From IMG/VR virus record IMGVR_UViG_3300008448_000032, positions 22,903 through 86,902 of that record: 64,000 nt of DNA. One strand, 5' to 3'. Each line of letters starts with the position of its first letter. The stretch's first letter is position 1. The position numbers and the translations under genes were made by a program. Positions 1,216 to 14,847 of the stretch are shown piece after piece. The notes below the pieces were generated by a model. That model saw only the letters and a program-made list of their open reading frames with translations. It did no database searches and was not told the DNA's origin. This DNA comes from a virus.

Positions 1216-1238
1216 ACCAAAAAAATAAAAACAAAAAG

Positions 1239-1248: not shown

Positions 1249-1277
1249 TCAATTAACTTAAAAATAAATAATAAAAT

Positions 1278-2762
1278 ATGAAAACAACAAGACCAGTATT
1301 TGAAAGTTTTTATTCTTTCGTAGATTTTCTTAATGAATCTATTGATGGAGAATATTACGAAGATTATCTTTTAGAGGATGAAGGAGATCCGGGAGATGAA
1401 TTAGATTCTGACACAGAAACCGGAAAGCTTTCCGAATTTTCAAATAGTCTAAGAGGGATGGAAAAAATTAATCCAAAAATTGTAGAAAAACTTTCAGCTT
1501 CATTTAAAACATTGGTTACCGATGCAGGAGCAAAAGCTTTGGAATCTTATGCCCAAAAAATTGCATCTTTTGCTGCATCTACGAAATCAGGAGTTAAATT
1601 GATAAGAAACCAATTGACTGGAGGTGGCGCCGGAGCATATTATAAGTGGTTAATTAACGGGACTTGTAAAGTTAAAGGTCAGCCAGCAATGAATGAAGAA
1701 GGAGTTATTAGAGATCTAGCTTTAACTGTAGATGACGATGGATCGTCTTTCTACCCTCTTTCTGATGTTCTTATTGGAATATTACAGAGAAATTTGAAAG
1801 CTTTATCCGATGTATTGGCAACAAAAGATGAAAAAACAATCCAAAAAGCTGCTAATGGAGGTAAAAAAGGAGGAAATGGAATAATTGAAAAAAAACAATT
1901 GTTAACGATAGATCCAGCATCAATAAAAACCAGAATATTAGAAGTACTCCCGTACGAGAAAGAATTCCATACGGCGGCAAAAAAAGATATGAGAGACGGG
2001 ACTCAAGTGGGACCAAAAGACAGCTATGTAATTTCTGCTTCCCGACTAGACGGAAAAGATAAAGTTAAATTTGGGAGATATGAATATGCCTTTGTCCTTC
2101 CTATTTGGGCTTTAGTCCCATCGTCTATAAAAGCATCTACCAACAAGGTGGATGAAAAAACATATACGACTGTTCTTCCCCCTGCTCAGGGAACTGAAAT
2201 TAAAATTGTAGATAAGCCTTTTAATTCTTCTAAAGAGCAATTCTTTTCAGCAGGATCCGTAACTTTATTACAATCAGGGGTAAATGATATGAAAGCTATG
2301 CTTTCTCAATTTAATTCGATAGAAAAAATAAAAGTTGTAGGTGGAGCATCCCAAGCTCCTACTAAATATGTATCTTCTAATGAAGAAACAAAAAAAGAAA
2401 TTACCCAAGAAAATACAAAAGCAGCAAAAGTGTTAATAGGAAATGGATATCTTGCTTATGACCGAATGCTAGCAGGGGTAAGCGCTTTTGAAAAAATGAA
2501 GGAAGATGGAATCCAGCAACTTAAAAATTGTACTATAGAAAAATCTACGGCAGATGAAGTTCTTAAAAATGTACAAACGATAGATGCAGAAAGTGATCCT
2601 AAAATGCAACAAATTACTTTTTATGTTAGTGGTATGGTCAAAGGAGTAGATCAAATAGCAGATAATAAACCAACTATAATTAAAAGGACTGTTGACATAA
2701 CATCTCAACAGGTGAAAATTGTTCAATTTCAATATGTTTTAGCATTTGATATTAAGAAATAA
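1278..2762 (+). CDS. Candidate capsid-packaged internal protein, possible OmpA-like C-terminal region
   Basis: This 494-residue protein starts with a short motif (FVDFLNE then SI, Glu at residue 20). The motif matches the capsid-targeting sequences of T4 internal proteins, where the prohead protease cuts after L/I-x-E. An acidic linker follows (about residues 24-50). The middle is rich in Lys, Ala and Gly. The stretch from about residue 320 to 400 (FFSAGSVTLL, then KVVGGAS, then ENTKAAKVLIGNGYLAYDR) has the spacing of an OmpA-like peptidoglycan-binding domain, but the usual GHTD/NxxLSxxRA residues are only loosely matched. It has its own promoter box and ends at a strong terminator, so it is probably monocistronic. 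Packaging is inferred; the OmpA resemblance is tentative. Confidence 0.75.
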   Translation: MKTTRPVFESFYSFVDFLNESIDGEYYEDYLLEDEGDPGDELDSDTETGKLSEFSNSLRGMEKINPKIVEKLSASFKTLVTDAGAKALESYAQKIASFAASTKSGVKLIRNQLTGGGAGAYYKWLINGTCKVKGQPAMNEEGVIRDLALTVDDDGSSFYPLSDVLIGILQRNLKALSDVLATKDEKTIQKAANGGKKGGNGIIEKKQLLTIDPASIKTRILEVLPYEKEFHTAAKKDMRDGTQVGPKDSYVISASRLDGKDKVKFGRYEYAFVLPIWALVPSSIKASTNKVDEKTYTTVLPPAQGTEIKIVDKPFNSSKEQFFSAGSVTLLQSGVNDMKAMLSQFNSIEKIKVVGGASQAPTKYVSSNEETKKEITQENTKAAKVLIGNGYLAYDRMLAGVSAFEKMKEDGIQQLKNCTIEKSTADEVLKNVQTIDAESDPKMQQITFYVSGMVKGVDQIADNKPTIIKRTVDITSQQVKIVQFQYVLAFDIKK

Positions 2763-2780
2763 TAAGAAACAATAAGAAAC

Positions 2781-2814
2781 AAAAAAACCCAGATTTTTAA
2801 ATCTGGGTTTTTTT
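2781..2814. terminator. Bidirectional intrinsic terminator
   Basis: A perfect inverted repeat built on AAACCCAGATTT / AAATCTGGGTTT has a two-base loop, a run of A on its left and a run of T on its right. It therefore works as a hairpin plus U-tract on both strands. It sits between the convergent genes ending at 2762 (+) and 2829 (-). Confidence 0.9.
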
Positions 2815-2828
2815 GTTTCCCCAATTTT

Positions 2829-3332
2829 TTATTCTATCTCTGAAATTTCTGAAATTCCAGAAAGACTTTCCCTTGTTATATTATTATCAACAATTAATCC
2901 GTATCGGATTAATCCCCCATATTGTTTAGTAGCTACTGCTGAAAAATCTACATAATATTTTTTTATAGTTTTTTCTCCCCCAAAATTAGGACTGTTGTAT
3001 AAATATTCAACGTATTCCTTTACTATCCTTTTAGCTTCAGATAATTCATCTTTTTCGTGATTAACCATCCCTCCTCCTTTTGTACCAAAGCACATTGGAT
3101 CCCCTGCTTCTTCCTGACTAACTGCTTTTGCTGCATAGTTATTAGTAGTGTCTTCGATCATCCAAGGAAATGCTACGTACATTTCTTGAGTTAAATACTT
3201 TTGGAATAATTGGACATCAAATCCTTTGCTGATGTCGAATCCATCCGATTCACTAAAATCTTCGAATCCTGTCTTTTGTGCATTAATAGATGTTCCAAAT
3301 GCTAATGCTAAAACTAAAACTAACTTTTTCAT
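2829..3332 (-). CDS. Secreted protein with signal peptide, function unknown
   Basis: This 167-residue protein opens with a classic type I signal peptide (MKK, a hydrophobic core, then SINAQ), so the mature protein probably starts near residue 19 and is exported. The NAQ-type ending is very common in Bacteroidota secreted proteins. The mature part is acidic to neutral with two isolated Cys/Gly-rich spots and no recognised catalytic motif. It is a single gene on the minus strand, convergent with its left neighbour, with a TATAAATA-like box 26 bases upstream of its ATG. It could be a host-derived moron gene acting in the periplasm or on the surface; the sequence does not show which. Confidence 0.75.
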   Translation of the reverse strand: MKKLVLVLALAFGTSINAQKTGFEDFSESDGFDISKGFDVQLFQKYLTQEMYVAFPWMIEDTTNNYAAKAVSQEEAGDPMCFGTKGGGMVNHEKDELSEAKRIVKEYVEYLYNSPNFGGEKTIKKYYVDFSAVATKQYGGLIRYGLIVDNNITRESLSGISEISEIE

Positions 3333-3358
3333 GGCTTTTAAAAATTAAATTAATAAAT

Positions 3359-3367
3359 TATTTATAG
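3359..3367 (-). promoter_or_regulatory. Candidate late promoter box on minus strand (CTATAAATA)
   Basis: Read on the minus strand this contains TATAAATA, the exact T4 late promoter box, 26 bases upstream of the ATG at 3332. It would drive the secreted protein gene. Confidence 0.45.
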
Positions 3368-3459
3368 ATCAAATATACGGTATTTATCGTAGAAAAAAAA
3401 TTTCCGGTAAAAAAATTTAAAAAAAAGAAACTAAAAGAAATAAAATCATATAAGGGTCG

Positions 3460-4914
3460 ATGACTAAATTAAAAAAGAAAGAATTAATACCTAAGGTAGA
3501 CACATCTACACTAAACGAGGACCAGAAAAAGTCTTTTGATTCCCTGGTAGATTTTATAACGGATCTCAATGATGATTCTATATACGTTCTAAAGGGATGG
3601 GCAGGAACTGGAAAAACTTACACCATAAGTCTTCTCGTTAGATACGTTTTAGAAGTCATACAGCCGACTCGTCTCTGGTACAAAGTTGGTGTTACCGGTC
3701 CTACTAATAAATCCGTACGCGTAATAAGAAAAGCAACTGGCATATCCAGCTCTAGAGTTCAGTTTCAAACTGTCCATAAGATACTTGGGCTTTCAGAAAA
3801 GATCACCTCAGATGGACAGCAGATCTTTGTCAATGATGGGGATTTTAGACCACAGATAAGAACTCTAAAGCTTCTTATTGTTGATGAGGTATCTATGCTC
3901 AACGACGATCTTTTTGAGGAACTTCTTAAATATCGGGATAAAACCAAAATCATTTTTATGGGGGATCCAGCTCAGATTCCTCCCGTAGGAAGACCTGATT
4001 GTATTCCTTTTAGGGATGAGCTCCTAGATGGATATAGAATAAAAACTCTAAATCTCAGACAGATAATGAGACAAAAAGAGGGAAATCCCATAATAGAATC
4101 TTCTGTAAAGATAAGGAAGAATATAGGAAATTCTAATTCCGGAATCTCCCCCGAAAATAAAATAAATCAAATAGGTGAAGGAGTAGAATTTGTAAATCTA
4201 AATTCTCCGGAATCCAGATCTTCTTTCAGAACAATTTTAGAGAAATACTTTAAAACTGATAGATTTAAAGATGACCCAGAATACTGTAAGATAATAGGAT
4301 GGAGAAATAAAACTATATCCTCTATGAACGATCTAGTAAGAAAGGTTATCTACGGAGAAGAAGCTCTATCTTCTAAGATTCTAATTGGGGAAAAACTCAT
4401 AGCAAATTCTCCTATCCTCGAAAAAGACACGATAATATTTAATACCAATGACGAATTTACTGTGGAATCTTTCGAAGTAGAATCAGAAGATCTAAGGTTT
4501 AAAGTCTCCGATCATCCGGATGACGACCCGTACCCGATATCTCTAAAACATTACGAAGCCTTAGTTTCCTACTTGGACGAAGATGATGATTTGGTAAGAA
4601 GAACCATCCGTATCCTTCACGAAGACAGCGAAGAAGAATTTAAAAAATTAGCAAACGTACTTAAGCTTAGAGCTATAAATAAAAAGGGAAAGGATAAGAG
4701 CTGGCTTGTCTATTATAATTTCCTTAGAAGGTACGCAGATGTTATGTACAGTTATTCGATAACTGCACACAAGGCACAGGGAAGCACATACGACACGGTA
4801 TTCCTACTAGAAGACGATATAGATGTTAATTGGAACATCATAGAAAGAAACCGAATAAAATACACAGCTTATACGAGATCAAGTCGAAAACTCTATGTGG
4901 TCAAAAGATATTAA
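3460..4914 (+). CDS. dda: Dda-like superfamily 1 DNA helicase
   Basis: This 484-residue helicase belongs to the RecD/Dda branch of superfamily 1 and likely unwinds DNA 5'-3' during phage replication and recombination. Visible motifs in order are Walker A (GWAGTGKT, Lys52), a DE-box Walker B (LLIVDEVSM, Asp142-Glu143), motif III (MGDPAQIPPVG), a C-terminal TAHKAQGSTYD motif and the final YTAYTRSSRKLYVV block (motif VI). Length and motif order fit T4 Dda (439 residues). The ATG at 3460 follows an A-rich leader with a weak TCATATAAGG sequence just upstream. Its right neighbour is a small holin candidate with its own promoter box. Confidence 0.93.
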   Translation: MTKLKKKELIPKVDTSTLNEDQKKSFDSLVDFITDLNDDSIYVLKGWAGTGKTYTISLLVRYVLEVIQPTRLWYKVGVTGPTNKSVRVIRKATGISSSRVQFQTVHKILGLSEKITSDGQQIFVNDGDFRPQIRTLKLLIVDEVSMLNDDLFEELLKYRDKTKIIFMGDPAQIPPVGRPDCIPFRDELLDGYRIKTLNLRQIMRQKEGNPIIESSVKIRKNIGNSNSGISPENKINQIGEGVEFVNLNSPESRSSFRTILEKYFKTDRFKDDPEYCKIIGWRNKTISSMNDLVRKVIYGEEALSSKILIGEKLIANSPILEKDTIIFNTNDEFTVESFEVESEDLRFKVSDHPDDDPYPISLKHYEALVSYLDEDDDLVRRTIRILHEDSEEEFKKLANVLKLRAINKKGKDKSWLVYYNFLRRYADVMYSYSITAHKAQGSTYDTVFLLEDDIDVNWNIIERNRIKYTAYTRSSRKLYVVKRY

Positions 4915-4923
4915 GCAGAAAAA

Positions 4924-4934
4924 GATATATAAAA
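4924..4934 (+). promoter_or_regulatory. Candidate late promoter box before holin
   Basis: GATATATAAAA lies directly after the helicase stop codon and 25 bases before the ATG at 4960. This is an excellent match to the recurring box. Confidence 0.6.
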
Positions 4935-4959
4935 CATATTAACCTTAAAACTAATAAAA

Positions 4960-5121
4960 ATGAAAAAAGAACAAATTTTAGGAATTGCTAGACACACATT
5001 AACTTTTATCGGTGGTATTCTAGTAACAAAAGGACTTTTTGATGCATCTGTTTGGGCAGAAATTTCAGGAAGTGTTATCACGTTAGCTGGTCTTATCTGG
5101 TCAGTTATCGATAAAAAATAA
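4960..5121 (+). CDS. Small membrane protein, candidate holin
   Basis: This 53-residue ORF is preceded by a promoter box and followed by a clear terminator, so it is a transcription unit by itself. It has a charged start (MKKEQ), two hydrophobic segments (about residues 14-24 and 35-50) joined by a short acidic/Trp turn, and a charged tail DKK. Its layout (IARHTLTFIGGILVTKG, then SVITLAGLIWSVI) resembles small phage holins of the Pam3 gp28 type. The next genes include a muralytic enzyme, so a lysis cassette is plausible. The assignment as a real gene is strong; the holin function is inferred from topology and context. Confidence 0.75.
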   Translation: MKKEQILGIARHTLTFIGGILVTKGLFDASVWAEISGSVITLAGLIWSVIDKK

Positions 5122-5141
5122 GAACCTTCCCTATTCGTCAT

Positions 5142-5167
5142 CCCCAGGAGAAATTCTGGGGTTTTTT
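5142..5167 (+). terminator. Intrinsic terminator after holin candidate
   Basis: CCCCAG and CTGGGG pair across an eight-base loop and are followed by six T. It ends the short holin transcript immediately before the next promoter box. Confidence 0.85.
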
Positions 5168-5169
5168 GT

Positions 5170-5180
5170 GATATATAAAA
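5170..5180 (+). promoter_or_regulatory. Candidate late promoter box, very close to the start codon
   Basis: GATATATAAAA ends only five bases before the ATG at 5186. If it works like a T4 late promoter, the message would be nearly leaderless. Confidence 0.5.
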
Positions 5181-5185
5181 ATAAA

Positions 5186-5833
5186 ATGATCTATTCTTTT
5201 TCCGTATTCGAATCCATGAAAAATGGATCTAATCTATTGGATAAAGCAAGTCCAGATTTTGTACCCCATGAAACTTTTCATGAATTCTCTTGGGTAAAGC
5301 CAGAAGAATCTGAATGGTACTATTCTATAAAGAGAAATTCGCCTTTAGAGATTCCGAGAAATAGAAAATTCTATGACACGTTAGATTCCCCGTTAAGAGA
5401 AGGAGTGGAAATACTTCATAAAAAAGGAATCCCTACAACTCCTTCTTGCTCAGGTCATTTTAATCCGGACTCTTTCTATAATAAAATATACAAATCTCTT
5501 TGTTCCGAAGAAGAAGAAATAAGAGGGAAAGGGATAAATCTAAAAGATCCGGAAACGAACGAAAGGTATGTCTATAAAGATCCCAATTATAGAATACCCT
5601 GGGAGGAAAAATCATTTCTGGAAATATCTAGAGAGCATGGAAAAAAAGGAATAATAGGAATTTTAGATCCTATGGGTGAAATACAAAGGAGTCTAATGGA
5701 ATCTTCTGGATCTGATTGTCAGATAACAAGAAACGGAAATTTAACTTTTTTCATAACTTCTCCTAAAGATAAAAAATCATTGGATTCCTCTTGGGAGAAC
5801 TTTAACGATTCCATCAAAAATTTTTTTAAATAG
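5186..5833 (+). CDS. Unrecognised protein with capsid-targeting-like N-terminus and Cys-Ser-Gly-His motif
   Basis: I place the start at the ATG at 5186 (215 residues), because the longer GTG start at 5168 lies inside the promoter box. The N-terminus (MIYSFSVFE then SM, Glu at residue 9) fits the hydrophobic-x-Glu cleavage pattern shared with other proteins in this region. In the middle, a segment reading EILHKKGIPTTPSCSGHF resembles the TTxSCSGR motif of TYW3-like tRNA-wybutosine proteins, but the rest does not obviously match and the last residue differs. It lies between the holin candidate and a muralytic enzyme. The function is unknown; packaging in the capsid is an inference. Confidence 0.75.
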   Translation: MIYSFSVFESMKNGSNLLDKASPDFVPHETFHEFSWVKPEESEWYYSIKRNSPLEIPRNRKFYDTLDSPLREGVEILHKKGIPTTPSCSGHFNPDSFYNKIYKSLCSEEEEIRGKGINLKDPETNERYVYKDPNYRIPWEEKSFLEISREHGKKGIIGILDPMGEIQRSLMESSGSDCQITRNGNLTFFITSPKDKKSLDSSWENFNDSIKNFFK

Positions 5834-5843
5834 GATATATAAA
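5834..5843 (+). promoter_or_regulatory. Candidate late promoter box
   Basis: GATATATAAA begins right after the preceding stop codon, 21 bases before the ATG at 5865. It drives the muralytic enzyme gene. Confidence 0.6.
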
Positions 5844-5864
5844 TTAAAATCTAAATTTATAATT

Positions 5865-6473
5865 ATGTCATACACAAGAGAACAAATTGAAGCGACAGTA
5901 AAATCTAAAGGGTATGTTTGGTTTGAAGATTCTTCGAATAAAACTTACGATGTTAATATTGTAGGGGTTAGGAATACTTCTCCTGCGGTTTACAAAAAAG
6001 TAACAAACGTATTCGATGACCATCTAACTCTTTCCTTTAAAGATGAAAAGGGAGCTTGGCAATACTATTGCTGGATGGGAACTTGCGATCCCGGAAAAAA
6101 AGGAGTAGAACAATTCCACAATAAAAAAGGTGTTGCTAGACTAGTTCCTGGACAGTATAGAGGAGTATGGAAAATAGACCTACACCAAGGAAAATATGAA
6201 GCTCTTTGTCAAAGAAATGGAAATGTTACGGTTTGGAGAGATGCAAATAGGGATTTAGTTTTCGAAGAGAATGTAACGGATACTGGAATTTTTGGAATCA
6301 ATATCCACAAAGCAGGACAAGATTCAGCTTGGGTTGAAAATTGGTCCGAAGGATGCCAGGTGTTCAAAAGAGTTAAGGATTTTGATGTGTTTATGTCTAT
6401 ATGTAAAAAAGCATCAAAAATTCATGGAAACAAATTTAGCTATACTCTTCTAGAATCAACAGATATAAAATAG
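5865..6473 (+). CDS. L,D-transpeptidase-like muralytic enzyme, candidate endolysin
   Basis: This 202-residue protein has a C-terminal block INIHKAG (His148) followed about 16 residues later by WSEGCQVF (Cys164). That is the His...S-x-G-C arrangement of YkuD/L,D-transpeptidase-fold enzymes, which act on peptidoglycan peptides. The N-terminal part (IEATVKSKGYVWFED, then VPGQYRG) resembles a family I associate with Bacteroidota phages and putative lysins. There is no signal peptide, so export would need a holin, and a holin candidate lies about 750 bases upstream. It has its own promoter box and lacks the capsid-targeting motif of its neighbours. Enzyme class is fairly likely; the substrate bond is not determined. 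Confidence 0.75.
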   Translation: MSYTREQIEATVKSKGYVWFEDSSNKTYDVNIVGVRNTSPAVYKKVTNVFDDHLTLSFKDEKGAWQYYCWMGTCDPGKKGVEQFHNKKGVARLVPGQYRGVWKIDLHQGKYEALCQRNGNVTVWRDANRDLVFEENVTDTGIFGINIHKAGQDSAWVENWSEGCQVFKRVKDFDVFMSICKKASKIHGNKFSYTLLESTDIK

Positions 6474-6477
6474 TAAA

Positions 6478-7884
6478 ATGTCTAGAAGAGTTAAAAATTA
6501 TTGGAATTTTTTAAATGAAGGAAATGCCCTTACTAAAAGTAAGGCAGCAAAAACTATAACTGCTGTTATAGACCCCGATACAAGGAGAAACATTAAAAGA
6601 AAATCCCAAGGAGAAATAGAGCAAAGTAAATCCAAAGACGGACAGACTTGGGCTGCAGATACTAGATACACATATCTTCCAGAGGAAGAAGGATATGTGG
6701 GATGGTCCAAATTTCACTTCGGTAAAGTAGTTTTGAGGGAAATCGAAGAAGAAGGATCAACAGAAAATGTGTATGAAGTTTTAACCGGACTAAATAAAGG
6801 GGTAAAAGGACCTTACGAATGGCAATCCGGAAATATCGGAACCCCAATTTACAATCCTCCGTATGGAAAAAAATGGGCAGATCTCCTAGGTCCTGACGAG
6901 GAATTCTTCAACAATTATGAATGGAATTCTAATCCTCCGATGAAAATTACATCTGTTCCCGGAATCGAAATAGCTAAAGTTGGGAATAAAGGGGAATGCC
7001 AATTAATCTACACCGATAAATTTCAGCTTTACGGAAAAGTAAAAATATATCATGATTTTAATTCAGATTCTAATTTTTCTTATGAGGTTTCGGATGGAAA
7101 TAATAAAGGAAAAAAAGGAAAAGGATTTTCTTTTATAAAAAGGGAAGAACTAGAAACAAAAGAAATTACTCCTTCTACCGAATTCCCTATTTTAAATAAT
7201 TTTTCAAAGGACGGAGAAATAATAAAAGCTTATGTAAAATTCCCTTATCCAACTCACAATGGATCAGGGTTTGGTGCCCAGTATGCAGGAAGTCCTTCGG
7301 GTAAACCTTATTCAATACCTTCTTCGTCAATAAACCCGGATCATTATATATGGTTAGATACTTCTGAATTTGAATCTATAAATTCTTCTAGCCTAGATGT
7401 TTTCAAATCTCTTTACGGAGATTTGAAATATAAAGATAAATTCGGAGAAAAAACTCTCGGAAGTCAATATCAAGAAAAATCTAAATATTATTGGGCAGAC
7501 ATAGGATCAGAGATAAAAGGGAATAAATTATCAGGATCTTATCTTTTCAATTATTTAGGATCTGGAAGCTACATCTATCTATATAGTGTTAATTCAAAAA
7601 ACGAGAGTAATGCAAGATTAAAATGGGACGATGAAGTAGGATGTTTTGGTAATAATTTTTTCACTGGACTTTTTATTACGGGGTTTGATCTTAAAAATCC
7701 AGGGGATAAATATACTAGAGAATATCTAAAAGGAGAATGGTTTTGGGATTACAAGAACAATTATGTGTGTTTACTATATGCTTATAATTCAAAAGGAGAA
7801 AAGAAAAGTGTAATATATAATTTAGATTCTCCTTCAGAACCGGTTCCTTATGATAAATGGGGGGGAGCAGGAGGAGATTGGTAA
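6478..7884 (+). CDS. Unrecognised protein with capsid-targeting-like N-terminus
   Basis: This 468-residue protein starts four bases after the upstream stop. Its first residues (VKNYWNFLNE then GN, Glu at residue 14) are among the clearest matches to a T4-type capsid-targeting sequence, with cleavage expected after L-x-E. A Lys/Arg-rich stretch follows (about residues 17-45). The remainder is rich in Tyr, Trp, Gly, Ser and Asn with a beta-like pattern, and includes repeated surface-type turns around WLDTSEF, YYWADIG and WFWDYKNNY. No catalytic motif is recognised. Two antisense frames cover its 5' end but look like shadows. Likely translationally coupled to the endolysin candidate. Confidence 0.75.
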   Translation: MSRRVKNYWNFLNEGNALTKSKAAKTITAVIDPDTRRNIKRKSQGEIEQSKSKDGQTWAADTRYTYLPEEEGYVGWSKFHFGKVVLREIEEEGSTENVYEVLTGLNKGVKGPYEWQSGNIGTPIYNPPYGKKWADLLGPDEEFFNNYEWNSNPPMKITSVPGIEIAKVGNKGECQLIYTDKFQLYGKVKIYHDFNSDSNFSYEVSDGNNKGKKGKGFSFIKREELETKEITPSTEFPILNNFSKDGEIIKAYVKFPYPTHNGSGFGAQYAGSPSGKPYSIPSSSINPDHYIWLDTSEFESINSSSLDVFKSLYGDLKYKDKFGEKTLGSQYQEKSKYYWADIGSEIKGNKLSGSYLFNYLGSGSYIYLYSVNSKNESNARLKWDDEVGCFGNNFFTGLFITGFDLKNPGDKYTREYLKGEWFWDYKNNYVCLLYAYNSKGEKKSVIYNLDSPSEPVPYDKWGGAGGDW

Positions 7885-7897
7885 TTTAAAAATTAAA

Positions 7898-8794
7898 ATG
7901 AAAAAAATAAAACTATTCGAAAACTATTCTTTAGAGAATTATGAAAGAGAGATAGAAGAATCTATTTATGAAAAATGGTCTTCTAGAAATGGGGATTCTT
8001 TATATCTATTAGAATCCATGGGTTCTGAAGAGGAAGATAGGCTGGATTGGCTTGATGATGAGGAATTAACACCGGGAGAAATGAGAGCTTTGGAGAGAGA
8101 TCTTCAAGTTATTTCTAAAGAGCAACTAGCTGCTTTGTATCTAAAAGCTTTAGGACAATATGAATTCGGGGATCCAGAAAGAATGAAAGGAAGAAGATCT
8201 AAATCAGAGGTTGTTCAAGAAGACGTATATGTAACTGGAATCCCAGGAATAGAAGAATTTTGCTCTGAAGACTGGAAAAGCGGAAATCTATTTATTGGTC
8301 CTAGTGCTCTTTCTGATGCGATAGGACTGAGATCTTTGGGTACTGTAACAAGAACAGTTAATAAATTTAGACTTCTTTTAGACGGAGAATCAGAGGGAAG
8401 ATATGACGAGGTGGTTTACCCTAAAGTTATAAATGCGTTTGATTTTTTCAAAGGAAAATCTCCAGAAGTTATACAGGGAATAGCTGCAGGGGGAATACAA
8501 AATCCAGAAACTTCTAAAGAGCACAGATCTGTTCTTAAAGGATCTGGTATTTCTAAAGCTGATTCTCTAATAATAGGAAAATTGGTTCATTCTCTTTTTA
8601 AAGATTATATGTCTAATTCTTTTTTCAGGAAGAATGTTTGTAAAGCTCAAAGCTCTGCTATATCTTCTATTTCCAAATCTAAAAGAATATCTCCTGAAGA
8701 GCTGGAAACATCATATAAAAATTATCTAATATCTCAAAAAATGTTAGATAAATTCAATTGGTGCGGACTTTATTCTAAATATGGGATCTACTAA
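7898..8794 (+). CDS. Unrecognised alpha-helical protein, weak capsid-targeting-like N-terminus
   Basis: I place the start at the ATG at 7898 (298 residues), preceded by an A-rich leader, because the longer frame overlaps the upstream gene. The N-terminus (IKLFE then NY; also YSLE) has the length and aromatic/charged character of the neighbouring targeting motifs but is a weaker match. It is followed by a very acidic stretch (about residues 20-75). The C-terminal two thirds look helical, with a Lys/Ser-rich end. No domain is recognised. It converges with a minus-strand membrane protein whose stop codon overlaps this one by four bases. Confidence 0.72.
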   Translation: MKKIKLFENYSLENYEREIEESIYEKWSSRNGDSLYLLESMGSEEEDRLDWLDDEELTPGEMRALERDLQVISKEQLAALYLKALGQYEFGDPERMKGRRSKSEVVQEDVYVTGIPGIEEFCSEDWKSGNLFIGPSALSDAIGLRSLGTVTRTVNKFRLLLDGESEGRYDEVVYPKVINAFDFFKGKSPEVIQGIAAGGIQNPETSKEHRSVLKGSGISKADSLIIGKLVHSLFKDYMSNSFFRKNVCKAQSSAISSISKSKRISPEELETSYKNYLISQKMLDKFNWCGLYSKYGIY

Positions 8795-9273
8795 AAATTA
8801 AAATTTCCTAGAAAAAGAAGAAAGGAAATTACCAAAAGAAATTCATAATGTCTTTTTATGTAAATCTTAGGGTTTATACAATCAACATAATTTATTCTTT
8901 CATAGAAATAATCACATCTATCTCTATCTGATAAAGAAAATTCCATATTTGATTTTTCTAAAAATTCTGAATTTTGTTTAGATTCCCATTCGTAAAACAC
9001 CTCAGCTTCCATACACATATCCAATACGGTTTCCCGAGTAAGAATTACCCTCTTGTGTTCTGCAATTATTAAAAGGGGAATAAAAAATCCTAGGAAATAA
9101 GTATTATAATAAAATTCTATTCCAGCAGATACTAGGATTAGAAAAGAGTAGAGACCTAAACTAGATTTCTTACCCGTAAATAATATAGGAAAAATTCTAA
9201 ACATTTTAGAGGTCTCGGGACATTCCCGATATAAAGATCTGTAGAATTTTTCTGATTTCGATTCTTTTTCCAT
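8791..9273 (-). CDS. Small membrane protein, function unknown
   Basis: The best start is the ATG at 9273 (160 residues); the longer frame to 9345 would overlap the divergent gene and its promoter. A hydrophobic hairpin (about residues 40-67, SFLILVSAGIEFYY and FLGFFIPLLII) suggests two membrane passes. A third hydrophobic segment lies at the extreme C-terminus (FLLVISFLLFLG). The loop between is charged and Cys/Tyr-containing. It could be a superinfection-immunity or membrane-modifying protein, but nothing in the sequence decides this. It is one of only three minus-strand genes here and is divergent from a DUF1566-like gene. Confidence 0.62.
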   Translation of the reverse strand: MEKESKSEKFYRSLYRECPETSKMFRIFPILFTGKKSSLGLYSFLILVSAGIEFYYNTYFLGFFIPLLIIAEHKRVILTRETVLDMCMEAEVFYEWESKQNSEFLEKSNMEFSLSDRDRCDYFYERINYVDCINPKIYIKRHYEFLLVISFLLFLGNFNF

Positions 9274-9285
9274 TTTAAAATAATT

Positions 9286-9297
9286 GATATATAAATC
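9286..9297. promoter_or_regulatory. Candidate promoter box, possibly bidirectional
   Basis: GATATATAAATC lies in the 35-base gap between divergent ATGs at 9273 (-) and 9309 (+). Its TATATA core is self-complementary, so one box might serve both directions; the plus-strand match to the recurring motif is better. Confidence 0.5.
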
Positions 9298-9308
9298 AAA
9301 TATAAGAA

Positions 9309-9704
9309 ATGTCTCGTATAATAAAAATCGGCCATATAGAAGCATTAATAGATTATCCGGAAGATGTCGTAAATACTCATTGGGATCTAGCAGAAGAAAA
9401 GATAAAGAATAATTACGGAAAAGGATGGAGACTTCCTACAGTGGAAGAACTCCTTTATATAAAAGATTTATCCCTGGAGTTCGGTATTTTTTCAGATTTC
9501 AATGTCGACGATGATTATTGGACATCTAAATCCGGAGAGCCTGGTTATATTCCAGATCGTAATGAGTTCGGCGAAGATTTTAGATGGTTCTATCAGGTGA
9601 GAATGCCCAATAATAAAGATCTCCAGGGTTTCGAGGATTCCCAGAAAGAATTTCTTTGTCACGTAGATTATTACGGAAATATTTTACCGGTAAGAGATAT
9701 ATAA
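9309..9704 (+). CDS. DUF1566-like (Lcl C-terminal type) protein, paralogue 1
   Basis: This 131-residue protein carries the signature GWRLPTVEELLYI, followed about 30 residues later by DYWTS and ending with NILPVRDI. This is the typical frame of DUF1566/Lcl-type domains, which have a C-type-lectin-like fold in bacterial surface proteins. It has no signal peptide. Two shorter relatives follow at 10506 and 10880, around a cell-wall hydrolase gene. The family often binds ligands, so a receptor or carbohydrate-binding role is possible, but nothing here proves display on the virion. Confidence 0.75.
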   Translation: MSRIIKIGHIEALIDYPEDVVNTHWDLAEEKIKNNYGKGWRLPTVEELLYIKDLSLEFGIFSDFNVDDDYWTSKSGEPGYIPDRNEFGEDFRWFYQVRMPNNKDLQGFEDSQKEFLCHVDYYGNILPVRDI

Positions 9705-9706
9705 AA
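9696..9706 (+). promoter_or_regulatory. Candidate late promoter box overlapping gene end
   Basis: GATATATAAAA overlaps the last codons of the upstream gene and lies eight bases before the ATG at 9715. Confidence 0.5.
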
Positions 9707-9714
9707 TAAAAACT

Positions 9715-10506
9715 ATGAAAACTATTAAAAATTTTAACGAATTTGTATCCGAATCTATTTTAGATTCACCTATTTTCCAAAAAATTGGATCACTTGTTAA
9801 ATCCACCCTGAATAGATCGGTAAATACTACTGAATATGAAAATGAGGTGGAAAAAGGAGATGCTGCAGAACCCGGAGGAGTTATGGGAGAATCCCCTATA
9901 GGAAGAGGAACTTCATTAGAATCCGATATGAAATTTACCAAAGAAGAGATGGAAACCTTTGGAGAAAAAATAGGAATAACCGATAAAGGAGACAAGGCAA
10001 AATTGGAACAGCCCTCCACCGGTCCTATAGGAAATATATCAAATTCTGCGTATGCTAACCTAAATGTTTCTACAAGAGGAATCCCGGGTACGGATGGTGG
10101 AAATCTTGGATGTGCTGCTGCGACTTCTATAATGTTCTATCGGGCAACTGGATATTCCTTAGCCGGGGGAACGACGGTTTGTATAGGAACTCTTACCATA
10201 TATGACGAATTGGATAAGAAAAGTAAAGAACCTTTATCTCCTTGGAAAAAGGTAACAGATTGGAAAAATGATTACATGCCTGGTGATATTATCGTTACTA
10301 GAAGAAGATCCAGACCTGGACATATCGGGGTAGTGGTTAATGATGGAAATATAATTTCAAATTCTTCATCTGGATTTAAAGGAGATAAAATGGGACAAAT
10401 AGAAGAAAATTACACTATAAAATCCTGGGATAGCGTAGCTAGAAGAAATCCTACGGAAACCGCAATATTTAGATACCAAGGTCCTTACAAGAACAGCTGG
10501 TCTTAA
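9715..10506 (+). CDS. Candidate capsid-packaged cysteine peptidoglycan hydrolase (NlpC/P60- or CHAP-like)
   Basis: This 263-residue protein begins IKNFNEFVSE then SI (Glu at residue 13), one of the best matches to a T4-type capsid-targeting sequence. A low-complexity linker runs to about residue 105. The C-terminal domain has a catalytic-type Cys in NLGCAAATS (Cys133), a MPGDIIVT segment and His203 in RPGHIGVVVNDG, the order and spacing of NlpC/P60 and CHAP amidases/endopeptidases that cut peptidoglycan. There is no signal peptide. The final stop overlaps the next gene start (TAATG), so the two are probably coupled. If packaged, the enzyme would be released at infection rather than at lysis. 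The hydrolase call is fairly sure; packaging is inferred. Confidence 0.8.
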   Translation: MKTIKNFNEFVSESILDSPIFQKIGSLVKSTLNRSVNTTEYENEVEKGDAAEPGGVMGESPIGRGTSLESDMKFTKEEMETFGEKIGITDKGDKAKLEQPSTGPIGNISNSAYANLNVSTRGIPGTDGGNLGCAAATSIMFYRATGYSLAGGTTVCIGTLTIYDELDKKSKEPLSPWKKVTDWKNDYMPGDIIVTRRRSRPGHIGVVVNDGNIISNSSSGFKGDKMGQIEENYTIKSWDSVARRNPTETAIFRYQGPYKNSWS

Positions 10507-10883
10507 TGAAAAGATTTATAGCAGGAAGAGTAGAAGTTTGTCTCGGATATGATTTTGAAGAGATGGATAAATCTGATGCTATAGAAAAATGCAAACAATT
10601 AGGCCCCGAATGGAGATTGCCAAATGAGAATGAAATCAGGTACATTTGCCAAAATTTATCTTACGGAGGGAATTCTGATTTTTGGACTTCTAGTGGAACC
10701 TTGGGAGGAATAGTTAATCGAAGAGGAAAATTCCTTAATGAACCCTCATATTGGATGGGAGAGCCCGAAGGAAGGAGTAGGTCATATATATATGATTGTC
10801 AATTTACAGGAAATAGATGTTTTCAAGTATTCGATAGATCTAGAAAGACGAATTCTGTATTTATGGGCGTTAGAGAGATATGA
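10506..10883 (+). CDS. DUF1566-like protein, paralogue 2
   Basis: This 125-residue protein has the same frame as its neighbour at 9309: EWRLPNENEIRYI, then SDFWTSSG and a terminal GVREI. Gly- and Arg-rich loops lie between (about residues 65-100), where lectin-like folds usually vary. It starts on the stop codon of the hydrolase gene (TAATG) and its end overlaps the third paralogue by four bases. The three therefore read as one operon, which suggests a joint role. No signal peptide is seen. Fold assignment is by motif only. Confidence 0.72.
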   Translation: MKRFIAGRVEVCLGYDFEEMDKSDAIEKCKQLGPEWRLPNENEIRYICQNLSYGGNSDFWTSSGTLGGIVNRRGKFLNEPSYWMGEPEGRSRSYIYDCQFTGNRCFQVFDRSRKTNSVFMGVREI

Positions 10884-11203
10884 AAATGATAGATCTAGGA
10901 CATACAATAATGGAGATTTCTGAAGATTCTAAAGATGGAAAATGGAAGGATTTCAATGAGTTATCAGAGAAAGAGGGATTTAGATTTCCTACTTTAAATG
11001 AGCTAAGGTATTTATATTCACTAAAAAAAGATCTCGGAATAGGAGATTTTGCTGATAGATGGTTTTGGTCTTCTGAAGTTATGGAAAGAAACATATATTC
11101 TCCTGGATCTAAATATTATTTTAAAGATTTTAGGGATGGAATAGAAGATTGGGAATACGCATATATGAGATCTGCTTGTCTTATAAGAGTTTACGATAAA
11201 TAG
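10880..11203 (+). CDS. DUF1566-like protein, paralogue 3
   Basis: The shortest (107 residues) and most diverged member keeps FRFPTLNELRYL and RWFWSSEV, and ends with a diverged CLIRVYDK. It begins four bases inside the preceding paralogue and is followed within about 15 bases by a hairpin terminator, which ends the hydrolase/DUF1566 operon. The three paralogues are clearly different from one another, so the duplications are old or diversifying. Function unknown. Confidence 0.68.
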   Translation: MKMIDLGHTIMEISEDSKDGKWKDFNELSEKEGFRFPTLNELRYLYSLKKDLGIGDFADRWFWSSEVMERNIYSPGSKYYFKDFRDGIEDWEYAYMRSACLIRVYDK

Positions 11204-11213
11204 TCAAACAAAA

Positions 11214-11240
11214 AAACCAGAATCTTTTGGATCCTGGTTT
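11214..11240. terminator. Hairpin terminator between convergent genes
   Basis: AAACCAG and CTGGTTT form the base of a stem with one mismatch above it, flanked by A on the left and a short, broken T-rich stretch on the right. It separates the operon ending at 11203 (+) from the methyltransferase ending at 11262 (-). Confidence 0.65.
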
Positions 11241-11261
11241 ATCTTAAATCTATTTTATTTA

Positions 11262-12269
11262 TTATTTTAATTTTTTTCTTAAAATAACTCCCGCTTGGTA
11301 GGAAGGAACTGGAACACCCGGATACATTTTAGGGTAAGTTCTCATAAATAGAGTTTCTGGAATGTGTCTGTGCATATAAAGACCATAGTACTCCATATCC
11401 GGATTATTCTTAAGAACCTCATCCATAATCATAGAAGATAGTAAATAAGGTTTTTTATTCTGAATCATATCTTTGATTAGAGTAACAAAGTATCCACCTG
11501 GCTTTAAAAATTCAATACCTTGTGTGTACATACCATTAACAAGATCCCAATATTCGCTTCCTTTAGTTAGACCGATATTATTTGGATGCTCATAATCGAA
11601 AGTTTTATCATTTAAAGTTCCATCTGCATTTTTAGCCATTCCCCTTTGTGGAGCATCTGAAGATTTCCCACTTAATTTAGGATATGGAGTACCGTTAACG
11701 ATTAGGGATAATTGACCTCTCTCGATACCCGAGCTTTCTAAATTCTGAGTTGTATTTCTAGCATCTCCTTGAACCAACTTAGCAACAACATCATTTCTTT
11801 CTACCTGAGCTGCAATGTTGTTATAAGCAATCTGGGGATACTCTAGCTCAACTCCGATCGAATTCCTACCGTTATTATATGCTTCAACCAAAGTCGTTCC
11901 TGTTCCACATGTAGGATCAAATACCCAATCTCCTGGTTGAGTTAGATTCTGTATTGCCCATCTATACCCTTGCCAGTGTCCTGGACATAGGTGCTTATCC
12001 TCTTGCTTAGGATAATACTTATATCTTGCAGACTGAGAATAGTATTTGTCTCTTTGGGTATCGTAGATTTCACCTAAGAAATTTTGGGTATAATCCGTAG
12101 TGTGATAATCAGAAGGCAATTCCATTCTTACCAAAAGTTCTTCTGTAGGAGTAATATCGTTTCTGTAAACGCTTTTATCCTTAGGATCTTTTTTGATTTT
12201 TTCTACTGGAGCTGGAGCTTCTTTAGGTTTAGTTTTGTCCTCGAAAGGAACTTGTTTCATTTCAATCAT
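11262..12269 (-). CDS. DNA methyltransferase (N4-cytosine/N6-adenine type)
   Basis: This 335-residue protein has the SAM-binding motif I (VFDPTCGTGTTLVEA), followed by an acidic strand (SIGVELEYPQIA), as in amino-methyltransferases. The catalytic motif IV would be expected as S/D/N-P-P-Y; here the corresponding position reads NGTPYP, a departure. It is likely to modify phage DNA to evade host restriction, or to regulate it. About 90 N-terminal residues, Lys/Pro-rich at first, precede the domain. It is on the minus strand and divergent from the SleB-like gene. The ATG at 12269 and the in-frame ATG at 12260 are both possible starts. Family is fairly sure; activity is uncertain. Confidence 0.82.
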   Translation of the reverse strand: MIEMKQVPFEDKTKPKEAPAPVEKIKKDPKDKSVYRNDITPTEELLVRMELPSDYHTTDYTQNFLGEIYDTQRDKYYSQSARYKYYPKQEDKHLCPGHWQGYRWAIQNLTQPGDWVFDPTCGTGTTLVEAYNNGRNSIGVELEYPQIAYNNIAAQVERNDVVAKLVQGDARNTTQNLESSGIERGQLSLIVNGTPYPKLSGKSSDAPQRGMAKNADGTLNDKTFDYEHPNNIGLTKGSEYWDLVNGMYTQGIEFLKPGGYFVTLIKDMIQNKKPYLLSSMIMDEVLKNNPDMEYYGLYMHRHIPETLFMRTYPKMYPGVPVPSYQAGVILRKKLK

Positions 12270-12300
12270 TTCTCAATTTTTAATTAATTATTATAATGAA

Positions 12301-12310
12301 TTTTATATCT
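12301..12310 (-). promoter_or_regulatory. Candidate promoter box for the methyltransferase
   Basis: On the minus strand this reads AGATATAAAA, about 31 bases upstream of the ATG at 12269. It is a weaker match to the recurring box. Confidence 0.35.
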
Positions 12311-12332
12311 CGATTTTATAAAATTATTTCGG

Positions 12333-12342
12333 GATATATAAA
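12333..12342 (+). promoter_or_regulatory. Candidate late promoter box
   Basis: GATATATAAA lies 14 bases before the GTG start at 12357. It forms a divergent pair with the methyltransferase box on the other strand. Confidence 0.55.
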
Positions 12343-12356
12343 AAAATATTATTAAA

Positions 12357-13421
12357 GTGAACAATCTTAATAGATTCTGCGAATGGGCGATCAATGAAGC
12401 CTCTTATTTTACTAAATGGGCTTCTACCCCATCGAACATAACAGCAGCTCAAAAAAGAGACATTGAATCCAAAGTAGAAGCTTCTTCTTCTGTTGATATG
12501 GAAATTCTTAAAAATTTCAATCCTTCTTATAGCTCTAGATATTGGGAGGCTTTAAAAATAAGATTGGGAGAAAATAAAATAAAATTTAAATATGGAAACA
12601 CCTCAGCAATTCCTAAGCAGTGGATATATTGGGGAGAAAAGGTAATATATTCCGACAAAAGACCACTCCTTTCTAGAAATAACTCAACTAAAGAGGAGGT
12701 TTTAGCTTATTTTCCTATCCCATTCAACGGAGTAGTTCTAGATAAATTTTGGGTTGTTGCAGTATGGAAAAACGCTTCGGGAGTAAATATGTTAAGGGAA
12801 ATGTCTTTAAAGACATACCTTACTAAAAGTACTAGGGATATAATAGATATTTATTTTAAGGGATATTCTTCCCCGGTGACCAATAAATCAAATCCCAAAG
12901 ATTATTGGACCCTTATCGCTATAATGGCCTGTGAAAATTTTCCAGAACAATCTCAGGGAATGGCAGATGTTGCTCAATCTATATACAATAGATATTATGT
13001 TAATGGAAAGCCTTACGGTAAAACCATATCTGAAATAATACTTGCTAAAGGACAATACGAACCCGTTACAAAAGGATTAAAGAAAGGAGCAGACTGGAAA
13101 AATGTAAATAGCAGATCTAAAGCTATAAGTGTTTATATGAAGACTAAAGGAAGTACATCAGATGTAGCTAATAAAGCAATAAATAATGCTATAGCTGCAC
13201 AATCCGGTAAATCTTATGTCTCCCAGGCAAAATCCCACGTGAAGACAAGAACAGAATTTTTGGCTTCTTCTCCTAAGTCTTCTTCCGCGGTTTCTCCGGT
13301 AGAAAGATCTGATCCAAAAAAACACAATTCTTTTTTCTGGAACTATGCCGGAAAAAATCAATATTATGCTAAAAAAGATTTCTCAGCAAAGCCTATCCCA
13401 TCGGAAGTTAAGATCGCTTAA
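12357..13421 (+). CDS. Candidate capsid-packaged cell-wall hydrolase (SleB-like)
   Basis: This 354-residue protein uses a GTG start placed just after the promoter box. The N-terminus (LNRFCEWAINE then AS, Glu at residue 14) fits the capsid-targeting pattern. After an unassigned region, residues about 180-310 resemble the SleB/hydrolase_2 family, which cuts peptidoglycan glycan strands: IAIMACENFPEQSQGMADVA (Glu193 as the likely catalytic acid), SIYNRYY, TISEIILAKGQYEPV, and a later HNSFFWNYA. There is no signal peptide. It is the second muralytic enzyme in this region with such an N-terminus. Hydrolase family is fairly likely; packaging is inferred. Confidence 0.8.
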   Translation: MNNLNRFCEWAINEASYFTKWASTPSNITAAQKRDIESKVEASSSVDMEILKNFNPSYSSRYWEALKIRLGENKIKFKYGNTSAIPKQWIYWGEKVIYSDKRPLLSRNNSTKEEVLAYFPIPFNGVVLDKFWVVAVWKNASGVNMLREMSLKTYLTKSTRDIIDIYFKGYSSPVTNKSNPKDYWTLIAIMACENFPEQSQGMADVAQSIYNRYYVNGKPYGKTISEIILAKGQYEPVTKGLKKGADWKNVNSRSKAISVYMKTKGSTSDVANKAINNAIAAQSGKSYVSQAKSHVKTRTEFLASSPKSSSAVSPVERSDPKKHNSFFWNYAGKNQYYAKKDFSAKPIPSEVKIA

Positions 13422-13433
13422 GATATATAAATA
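13422..13433 (+). promoter_or_regulatory. Candidate late promoter box
   Basis: GATATATAAATA starts right after the preceding stop codon, eight bases before the ATG at 13442. Confidence 0.55.
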
Positions 13434-13441
13434 AAAAGAGG

Positions 13442-13876
13442 ATGTCAAGAATATACGATTACGGAGCTTTTTCAAATAATAAATCTAAATTTTCGGATTC
13501 GGGTAATAAATTTGGGTACGAGATGTCTTTTGTCGATATAGATATATCGGGAAAGCCTAAAGAATTTAGAGATATAATTGATGTTAAAGTTTTTATTGAA
13601 TATTCCACTAACGTCGTTTCCAATAAAAGAGGTCTAGAAAGAGTTGATTTTTCCGTAGATTGTATAGAGCTTATAATGGATATTGAAAATTCCGTCGGGA
13701 AGAACGAGGAGATAGATTTTGATCTTATCCCAGGAAAAACTATAGATTACGGCCAGGTTAAGTATACCATAAATGAATTTCCTATACCTTCTTATCCTCA
13801 AAGAATAGAAATAAATATGAACGGGTTTACAGATCCTACGAGGTTTGATGTAATGGTTTATTTTGGAAATAACTAG
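13442..13876 (+). CDS. Hypothetical protein
   Basis: This 144-residue protein has a beta-rich pattern (alternating hydrophobic strands, about residues 25-140), no signal peptide, no membrane segment and no recognised motif. It has its own promoter box and stops two bases before the next gene, whose N-terminus resembles a targeting sequence. It may work with that protein, but the sequence gives no function. Confidence 0.65.
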   Translation: MSRIYDYGAFSNNKSKFSDSGNKFGYEMSFVDIDISGKPKEFRDIIDVKVFIEYSTNVVSNKRGLERVDFSVDCIELIMDIENSVGKNEEIDFDLIPGKTIDYGQVKYTINEFPIPSYPQRIEINMNGFTDPTRFDVMVYFGNN

Positions 13877-13878
13877 GA

Positions 13879-14847
13879 ATGAGAGAAATTCTAGAATACG
13901 AAAGTTTTAATCCTCTTCACGAATCTAAAAAATATGAGGGCCTAAGATCTGTTAAAAAAACTTGGGGTGGAGAATACATTCTAGACGTTGACGATTATCA
14001 AAAGACAAACAGCAAACCTTTAAAGGGATCTATATTAATAGGAAAGGATAGCGGAAAAGCCGTTGCTCTTACATATTTAAATCCGGATGGAAGCGAATCT
14101 AAATACCTTTGGGTTCCTTATTTCGGAGCTTATATGAATAGAAATACCGCAGGAGGGATAAGCTCTATTAAAATAACACCTTATAAAAATTGGTTATCGC
14201 AGTCAGAAAATGAAAAAAAGCTTGAAGATTTTTTAGATGGATTTCAAGAATCTATAGAAAAAGAAAAAACTGAAAGCGAGAAAACCGTAGGACTTCAGGC
14301 ACAAAAAGATTTAGACCTTATATTAGACATGTACGGAATAAATTCTCCGATAGAAAAATTTGAAAAAGGGGATAGAGAAAATGAATGGAGAGCTATTCTA
14401 GAAAATGGATTTGTCGTCATAATAAAAAAGAGATCTTCTGAGGATCTTGTAGGAGAATTTAGAATTTACCCCAAGGAAAAAGAAGAATTTCCATATATAG
14501 AGATAAGCACGGAAAAAAATGAGAAAGGGTTTAAATTTAAAAGACCCGGAGAATATATGATTCGAAGAAGAATAGATATGACCGACCTCAAAAAAGATCC
14601 CGTAGCTTTATACCTGTTTAAGAATATAACAGGTCTCCAAGAATATGAGGACGAAAAATCATTATTGAACTATTTTGAATCTCTAGTAAAATCTCAGGAT
14701 ACTTCTTACCAAATGTCGGATGATTCCAGATCTTATAAGAGTGGACAGTCCGAAAGAGAAGAAATAAATCTGGTTTCCAAATTACTAGAGGATTTCTTAA
14801 CTTCTAAAAAAATAGAAGAAATCTACACAAAGAACAAAAAAAGATAG
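13879..14847 (+). CDS. Unrecognised protein with capsid-targeting-like N-terminus
   Basis: This 322-residue protein begins ILEYESFNPLHE then SK (Glu at residue 15), fitting the hydrophobic-x-Glu then Ser pattern of the other candidates. The next section (about residues 20-90) is beta-like with GSILIGKDSGKAVALTYLNPDG. Highly charged Glu/Lys helices follow (about residues 105-150), then a second mixed domain. No catalytic motif is recognised. It begins two bases after the upstream stop and is probably co-transcribed with it. Confidence 0.72.
   Translation: MREILEYESFNPLHESKKYEGLRSVKKTWGGEYILDVDDYQKTNSKPLKGSILIGKDSGKAVALTYLNPDGSESKYLWVPYFGAYMNRNTAGGISSIKITPYKNWLSQSENEKKLEDFLDGFQESIEKEKTESEKTVGLQAQKDLDLILDMYGINSPIEKFEKGDRENEWRAILENGFVVIIKKRSSEDLVGEFRIYPKEKEEFPYIEISTEKNEKGFKFKRPGEYMIRRRIDMTDLKKDPVALYLFKNITGLQEYEDEKSLLNYFESLVKSQDTSYQMSDDSRSYKSGQSEREEINLVSKLLEDFLTSKKIEEIYTKNKKR

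Follow-up and report, generated by a model that had tools for sequence, protein, structure and literature searches.

The locus and its tagged proteins

The stretch of viral DNA described here (the window, 64,000 nucleotides) corresponds to positions 22903-86902 of the 86,902-base IMG/VR record IMGVR_UViG_3300008448_000032, the left 23 kb of which were also read, and its subject is a short N-terminal sequence, the tag, which is shared by a series of unrelated proteins, each referred to as the cargo of its tag. The core of this sequence, [FY]-x-x-[FY]-[LIV]-x-E| (the bar marking the predicted cut), recurs on numerous unrelated proteins and is spaced like the T4 sequence YQEFIAE; in the T4 record, MKTYQEFIAE stands at the N-termini of two open reading frames (ORFs), at 65416 and 65834, which we take to be those of IPII and IPIII. 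A first-pass annotation of the window had pointed to six N-termini of this type and two weaker ones, and all eight are present with the peptides and coordinates it gave, on the + strand.

The first tag, MKTTRPVFESFYSFVDFLNE|SI (1278..1337), opens a 494-residue protein (1278-2762) and has a low score in the position weight matrix (PWM) described below; two paralogs in the nearest relative, G001 (26 and 38% identity), retain TRPVFES and, by eye, show hydrophobic-x-Glu farther on. It is followed by MIYSFSVFE|SM (5186..5212; protein 5186-5833), whose start is an internal ATG of ORF 5168 and whose ortholog reads MIYSFSLFE|SI, by MSRRVKNYWNFLNE|GN (6478..6519; protein 6478-7884; ortholog MRRVKDYNTFLNE|NL, 32% identity), and by the tag core MKKIKLFE|NY (7898..7921; protein 7898-8794), which reaches 12 bits in the held-out PWM and whose cut point is uncertain. 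The tag MKTIKNFNEFVSE|SI (9715..9753) precedes a protein (9715-10506) with weak lysin-type and NlpC/P60 matches (phrog_1015, E 7e-5; NLPC_P60, 16.9 bits, below the cut-off of 23), while VNNLNRFCEWAINE|AS (12357..12398), with a GTG start, precedes a cell-wall hydrolase (12357-13421) matching Hydrolase_2 (PF07486) with 28.9 bits, above the cut-off of 27; its ortholog in the related record L193 reads MKNLEKFSNWDLNE|SY. Finally, the lineage-conserved 322-residue protein at 13879-14847 carries MREILEYESFNPLHE|SK (13879..13923), and a 78-residue protein at 60904-61140 carries the weak tag MRTFTELKEINE|MK (60904..60939), which in its ortholog from the 434-kb relative G005 reads MKTFSNLKELNE|AK. The window itself begins with the C-terminal part of another tagged protein (22..1215, + strand), which is in frame with L003:9427, 498 bases upstream of position 22, and starts as MIKSFEQYLNE|AS left of the window; there, about 12 further tag-like starts, this one included, were recognised by eye.

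In the PWM, 7898, 9715 and 13879 score above 8 bits and 12357 scores 6.0; 1278, 5186 and 6478 are low and were recognised as tags by eye and from their orthologs, the PWM not being exhaustive. Scans of related loci returned no relative for 9715, 1278 or 6478, and two for 12357. The tag motif was also observed in the interior of L003:5205-5747 and L003:6816-7373 (MDYESFSNSLNE|GS and GRIKRFEEFIFE|NK), as if these had been cut in two.

Statistics and conservation of the motif

The motif and the PWM were derived from G005, where an unsupervised motif finder was given the N-terminal 35 residues of each of 607 ORFs and the best of 60 random starts was retained. The motif found, x-[IL]-K-[TS]-[FY]-[ED]-[EQ]-[FYL], is borne by about 22% of the proteins, and the learned tag consensus is MK-x-I-K-x-F-x-x-F…[LI]NE|S. 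At 8 bits or more, 106 of the 607 N-termini were recovered, where 2475 internal windows predict 6.1 and shuffled sequences 8.2. Anchored on the start codon, tags were assigned to 95 of the 607 ORFs, representing 15% of the coding length (3.7 expected from internal start codons), to 9/78 in the window's record (none in 321 control spans), to 14/93 in G001 (0.8 expected) and to 27/497 in LR756500, an uncultured 462-kb phage (2.5 expected).

When the G005-trained PWM was applied to the predicted proteins of the window's record, 12 of 78 N-termini reached 7 bits, with 1.4 expected (p 1e-8), and among the 29 ORFs without a homolog in the training genome the figure was 8, with 0.5 expected (p 3e-8). 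The shared N-terminal motif reported by the first-pass annotation is therefore real, whereas the bare hydrophobic-x-Glu ending by which it had been defined is weak when taken alone (22/78 against 15.7 after shuffling, the largest shuffle giving 27); the signal is the aromatic-x-x-aromatic core plus the hydrophobic-x-Glu ending. Simple regular expressions were dropped as too loose, and the trained, held-out PWM was used instead. Glu is commonest three residues past the second aromatic (29%, compared with 5-16% at other offsets up to 14), and at P3 the strongest enrichment is for L and I. Hydrophobic-x-Glu is found at or just past the end of the core in 64/95 tags of G005, 8/9 of the window's record, 12/14 of G001 and 23/27 of LR756500, against 30-37% of internal windows chosen to have a hydrophobic residue in the equivalent position.

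Conservation points to the same residue. For the 13879 protein, 22 orthologs could be aligned (21-82% identity), with a variable spacing between the aromatic pair and the Glu, and one of the 5 invariant columns of this alignment (23 rows, 350 columns) is the P1 Glu, E15. In its structural model (predicted local distance difference test score, pLDDT, 85; predicted template-modelling score, pTM, 0.59), residues 1-5 and 9-16 have a pLDDT below 50 and the first strand starts from residue 25, a low-scoring N-terminus as would be expected for a removable leader; the model had no PDB or BFVD match at E<=0.001. The model of the 1278 protein is poor (pLDDT 48). Comparison by eye with G001 and L193 indicates, moreover, that the proteins of the cargo island described below retain the Glu while the remainder diverges, as in MKTIKNFNEFVSE|SI and its relatives MKNLKKFNDLVQE|GF and MKNLKRFNELIEE|GF.

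The tag is widespread among viral records. A DNA pattern encoding MK-x-[LIFM]-K-x-[FY]-x-x-[FY]-x-N-E matched at least 120 IMG/VR stretches, compared with 0 for a scrambled pattern of equal composition and codon classes, and of the ORFs of the 80 listed loci that do not themselves fit the pattern, 118/805 were tagged at 10 bits or more, with 4.5 expected. A tblastn search of named phages with two tag-like peptides, which is insensitive, gave one weak match for one of them and none for the other.

Capsid, protease and scaffold

The record starts inside a major capsid gene of the T4 gp23 type (phrog_138, E 9e-17), so that the genes upstream of it lie off its end; a direct S77 search of the record gave no match. 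With the 144-residue capsid fragment as query, 199 loci were confirmed; the best 80 of them share 91-100% identity with it, and the longest record among these has 434 kb. The named phages with the nearest capsids, all below 60% identity, are LR756500, the Prevotella Lak phages, Flavobacterium MaF61, Tenacibaculum PTm1/pT24 and Sphingomonas PAU. Together with the words TAnnTTTG before untagged genes, which we take to be the Bacteroidota promoter consensus, these relatives suggest a Bacteroidota host. In the nearest relative the capsid gene (L004:1590-3175) is broken into two ORFs, which could reflect an assembly error, a frameshift or an insertion.

The parallel with T4 drawn by the first-pass annotation entailed a gp21-like prohead protease and a scaffold, and both were found in the relatives. 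S77, the gp21 family, scored above its curated cut-off in 11 of 12, about 3 kb upstream of the capsid match and on the same strand; the twelfth, G001, starts inside the protease-scaffold gene (55% identity to the scaffold half). In the two records with listed genes, the S77 gene adjoins the capsid gene and forms a fusion with a scaffold-like domain. For L005, the capsid precursor gives a Gp23 match (PF07068, E 2e-41), and all 23 capsid N-termini matched (12 distinct) read YHSLNE|SAGA, with a predicted LNE|S site. With Ser at P4 and His at P7, this site lacks an aromatic in either place, so that the aromatic pair is not part of the capsid cleavage site. A wider set of 26 contigs, reached through the DNA pattern of the tag alone (all 25 newly found contigs of at least 100 kb plus L220, with the known relative behind L249 omitted, and including near-duplicates such as G020, G023 and G030) contained S77 in 18 cases, 16 of them above the cut-off, and Gp23 in 19. 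In MaF61 the S77 search gave no match.

Alignment of two protease-scaffold proteins revealed a run of YSEYLAENVDKNIS repeats. Counting the strict core [FYW]-x-x-[FYWHL]-[LIVMF]-x-E, the scaffold half was found to repeat the tag core (YSEYLAEN) in 3-16 copies in every one of the 19 such proteins taken from tag-bearing records, shuffled versions averaging 0.2-0.4; these proteins (18 groups at 90% similarity) include those of 16 of the 18 S77-positive tag contigs, two near-copies being omitted. No copy of the strict core was present in the scaffolds of PTm1, PAU and Lak-A1 or in T4 gp22. The spacing of the cores is mostly 14 residues (83 intervals), followed by 28 residues (12 intervals). Across whole proteomes, the scaffold ranks top for internal copies of the core in G005 (13, the next protein having 2, among 638 proteins) and in G004 (12, next 2, among 130), and is joint first in LR756500 with 3. 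Apart from the hydrophobic and Glu positions, which the search pattern fixes, repeat and tag have in common an aromatic column, one that is polar or acidic, one that is aromatic or His, and one that is small or Asn.

The fused scaffold of PTm1 (L131:3228-4922) has a different tandem repeat, ELSEGIEKWIK-like; if scaffold mimicry were general, PTm1 cargo tags would be expected to mimic that repeat.

Upstream sequences

The word GATATATA lies at 1239..1246 (+ strand), 39 bases before the 1278 start codon, and at 12333..12340 (+ strand), 24 bases before the 12357 start. In G005, for genes with an upstream gap of at least 30 bases, it was found between -20 and -40 in 22/43 tagged genes, 5/12 untagged head-tail genes and 18/172 others (p 2.5e-8 and p 0.009, respectively, against the others; 0.09 of 43 expected from shuffled upstream sequences), whereas the host-type word TAnnTTTG showed the opposite tendency, 3/43 tagged against 50/184. 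Among window genes with such a gap, GATATATA precedes 1278, 5865, 12357, 39249 (word at 39224) and 60904 (word at 60878, that is, at -26), and is absent before 3460 (helicase), 11262 (methylase), 61873 (single-stranded DNA-binding protein), 62948 (primase), 2829, 14878 and 35100; it also ends a short way before 9715 and 13442. Following a T-rich stretch and with no obvious -35 element, GATATATA looks like a late promoter of the lineage, comparable to the T4 late promoter TATAAATA.

Cargo proteins and the island

The tagged genes from 1278 to 13421 belong to the right part (1..13441 of the window, no strand assigned) of a 25.1-kb cargo island (record 11231-36343) set between two conserved head-region genes, 13879 and 60904 being outside it. 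Both flanking genes are present in 33 loci; the distance between them is 0.75-1.54 kb in 31 of these, 25.1 kb here and 27.1 kb in G001. L193 is a third record of the island type, with two extra genes with tag-like starts at one island site.

Left of the window, at L002:12619-13290, lies the gene of a superoxide dismutase of the Fe/Mn type (E 8e-34), both complete and tagged. Residue 4 of the best-matching solved dismutase aligns to residue 18 of the phage protein, so that an otherwise normal enzyme has been extended by the 14-residue tag, and the alignment covers what we presume to be the metal-ligand segments of such enzymes. Similarly, in a tagged adenylate kinase of G005 the enzyme portion begins about 29 residues late. 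The Pfam tally of the G005 proteins with a putative tag includes, among others, SLT, CHAP and glucosaminidase, with one member each (25 of the 43 families are listed). Also tagged in G005 are a RimK-like ATP-grasp ligase and a Tlde1/YkuD-like protein, the latter falling just below its cut-offs. Furthermore, the 91 pattern ORFs of other contigs include an Acb1-like protein (E 6e-7) directed against CBASS, the cyclic oligonucleotide-based antiphage signalling system, with two HxT motifs in the protein, which was itself picked by eye, as well as two NMNAT-like proteins, a CHAP protein and nucleotidyltransferase-like proteins. PDB sequence searches gave no match for the Acb1-like and one NMNAT-like protein, and these names therefore rest on Pfam scores and, in the case of Acb1, on the HxT motifs. 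When 186 tagged proteins were compared with the T4 ORFs, two matched at E<=1e-3, a DNA ligase and a 324-residue ORF, neither at the positions of the MKTYQEFIAE ORFs.

Several neighbouring genes may be mentioned. A small secreted-type protein (MKKLVLVLALAFGTSINAQ; 2829-3332, minus strand) lies tail to tail with the tagged gene 1278-2762; both proteins are duplicated in G001, and they resemble a linked pair, perhaps of effector and protective partner. Four small proteins with a WRLP-type stretch, linked by cross-matches, are interleaved with tagged genes (9309-9704, 10506-10883, 10880-11203 and L002:11362-11781), the first of them having a weak Lcl_C-like match. In relatives, a tagged nucleotidyltransferase is found upstream of the protease and capsid genes (L005:3121-3918, with NTP_transf_2 above cut-off, and G005:293133-293948).

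Interpretation and alternatives

The N-terminus shared by these proteins is probably a capsid-targeting sequence of the T4 type, a portable tag of about 13 codons that would work by scaffold mimicry, be cut by S77 and provide a swappable packaged cargo. The common code and the expandable cargo set put forward by the first-pass annotation are supported by the held-out statistics, the conserved P1 Glu, the cargo island and the late-type promoters, whereas packaging, scaffold binding and cutting after the Glu are steps that we infer from sequence comparison. During head assembly, the tag would bind into the scaffold core by imitating one scaffold repeat, and the cargo would thereby be incorporated in the prohead; the S77 protease would then cut after the Glu of the tag, destroying the scaffold and releasing the cargo, which would exit with the DNA at infection. 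Such cargo would consist of swappable enzymes and inhibitors, including wall hydrolases, superoxide dismutase, adenylate kinase, the Acb1-like protein and many proteins without an assigned function. Mimicry of one repeat is proposed because the repeat shares the tag core, because the aromatic pair lies outside the capsid site, and because residues 4 and 7 of the T4 sequence govern targeting.

Several observations weigh against this interpretation. As to the tag itself, 31 of the 95 G005 tags (about one third) have no hydrophobic-x-Glu in the stretch tested, and a Lar-like protein and a DNA ligase of G005 were set aside as likely false PWM matches; moreover, the tagged cargo, unlike the T4 internal proteins, is not basic, its net charge in four records being that of untagged proteins. 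As to the promoter word, GATATATA is absent before the structural-region genes 21094 and 56544, its count in the whole window is marginal (14 against 8.5, with 5 of 100 shuffles reaching 14), and its excess is significant in G005 and in none of G000, G001 or G004 taken alone. Regarding the head genes, 8 of the 26 tag contigs gave no S77 match and 7 no gp23 match, although these may be fragments; T4, PTm1 and PAU have S77 and yet show no clear tag excess with this model, and Lak-A1 (381 kb scanned), which also has S77, shows a two-fold excess only (14 against 6.8 at 8 bits). The scaffolds of LR756500, L336 and L343 have just 3 cores (largest shuffle 2, 2 and 3), and T4 gp22 is without the repeat though T4 has the tag, so that simple scaffold mimicry cannot explain T4. 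Virion proteomics or cleavage data for the lineage were looked for and not found.

Among the alternatives, the one that survives best, though still rather unlikely, is that the motif is merely a protease recognition site, the proteins reaching the head by another route and the scaffold likeness being due to S77 specificity. In its favour, a terminal hydrophobic-x-Glu is common to the scaffold repeats, the capsid precursor and the tags. Nevertheless, the capsid site YHSLNE|S, in 23/23 matched N-termini, does without the aromatic pair, a mere cleavage site need not be limited to N-termini, and in the accessible parts of PMC9026906 T4 mutants separate the two functions, residues 4 and 7 of IPIII governing targeting and residues 8 and 10 processing.

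It is improbable that the tag directs proteins elsewhere, to the membrane, the tail or a replication compartment: although several cargos are cell-wall enzymes, and the search for packaging data was without result, the late-type promoter word, the co-occurrence with S77 and gp23, the cleavage-like ending and the match to the scaffold repeat all argue against it. Still less credence can be given to a likeness due to paralogy of a few internal proteins, with no portable tag. Some paralogs do exist, such as the 1278 family with its two copies in G001, and the tags of L220, which is an array of tagged ORFs, are very similar. However, the Pfam families listed for the 95 G005 proteins have one member each and unrelated folds, the mean column identity among these proteins is 5%, and in L220 identity drops to background directly after the tag. 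Here, 11 ORFs chosen by their tag were compared at the DNA level, giving 86, 78 and 63% identity for the first, second and third 15 bases counted from the start codon, with 30-44% on both sides, an identity which is partly due to the selection by tag but whose edges are nonetheless sharp. As an account of the whole set, paralogy is refuted by the Pfam spread, the low identity and the L220 edges. Chance, or a compositional pattern of AT-rich phage genes, has a negligible probability, since beyond a mild enrichment of the short ending alone it is refuted by the held-out, internal-window, shuffled, internal-start and scrambled-pattern controls.

Known systems and significance

The capsid-targeting reading brings the tag closest to the internal proteins of T4, which likewise have an N-terminal tag with aromatic-x-x-aromatic-hydrophobic-x-Glu (IPIII positions 4, 7, 8 and 10), S77, gp23 and unrelated cargos. 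According to the available parts of the T4 literature, targeting has been mapped to residues and the propeptides have affinity for the core, the binding site being left unnamed there, and an IPIII tag with the Glu changed to Asp has been reported still to carry GFP into heads (PMC9026906, in part). The T4 internal proteins are injected anti-restriction inhibitors, three in T4 and at least ten reported in related phages, where many are recognised by their signal sequence (accessible parts of PMC12373910). In contrast to the three of T4, about 95 tagged proteins occur in one genome here, the cargo extends to large, non-basic proteins and to enzymes and is not homologous to IPI-III, and the scaffold to which the protease is fused has tag-like repeats, of which T4 gp22 has none. 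In phage P1, an N-terminal signal also packages an anti-restriction protein, DarB, and can carry a reporter, but BLAST found no consensus among the Dar N-termini (both from the accessible parts of PMC9024508). The ejection proteins of SPN3US and phiKZ resemble the present case in being many head proteins served by a Glu-specific head protease (PMC5694885, PMC9026906, in the parts available), and differ in that their sites read A-x-E or S/A-x-E and their propeptides are mostly long, whereas here P3 is enriched in L and I and the tags of the window have about 8-20 residues. Finally, PTm1, PAU and Lak-A1 share the gp23-type capsid and S77, the protease-scaffold of PTm1 being annotated as fused, and are unlike in their scaffolds, which have no tag-like core, and in tag excess, which is not clear in PTm1 and PAU and about two-fold in Lak-A1.

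In the open-access literature searched, five tag peptides did not occur, and among the entries listed no report was found of an arsenal of this size or of the resemblance to the scaffold; the term 'internal protein' is not present in the accessible parts of two papers on large Bacteroidota phages (PMC12619734, PMC12363816). The system is a real and much enlarged variant of T4 capsid targeting, a kind already known, while its scale, enzyme cargo, island and scaffold-repeat likeness are undescribed in the literature searched.

As a sequence code, the tag predicts from the genome alone which proteins of unassigned function in large environmental phages are likely to be packaged. With it, some of the 'dark' genes carried by giant phages can be ranked as candidates for injected effectors or anti-defence proteins. 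A concrete mechanism for capsid targeting, the mimicry of one scaffold repeat, is suggested as well, and the toolkit of tags for phage-based protein delivery would be broadened. There is, moreover, about an even chance that a tag imitating a single scaffold repeat serves as an open-access loading port through which large gp23-type phages have come to load some hundred different proteins, infection starting with a delivered starter proteome. If so, any gene gaining 13 codons would become virion cargo, and what reaches the cell at the outset would be wall-opening, antioxidant and nucleotide enzymes together with immune inhibitors, instead of bare DNA.

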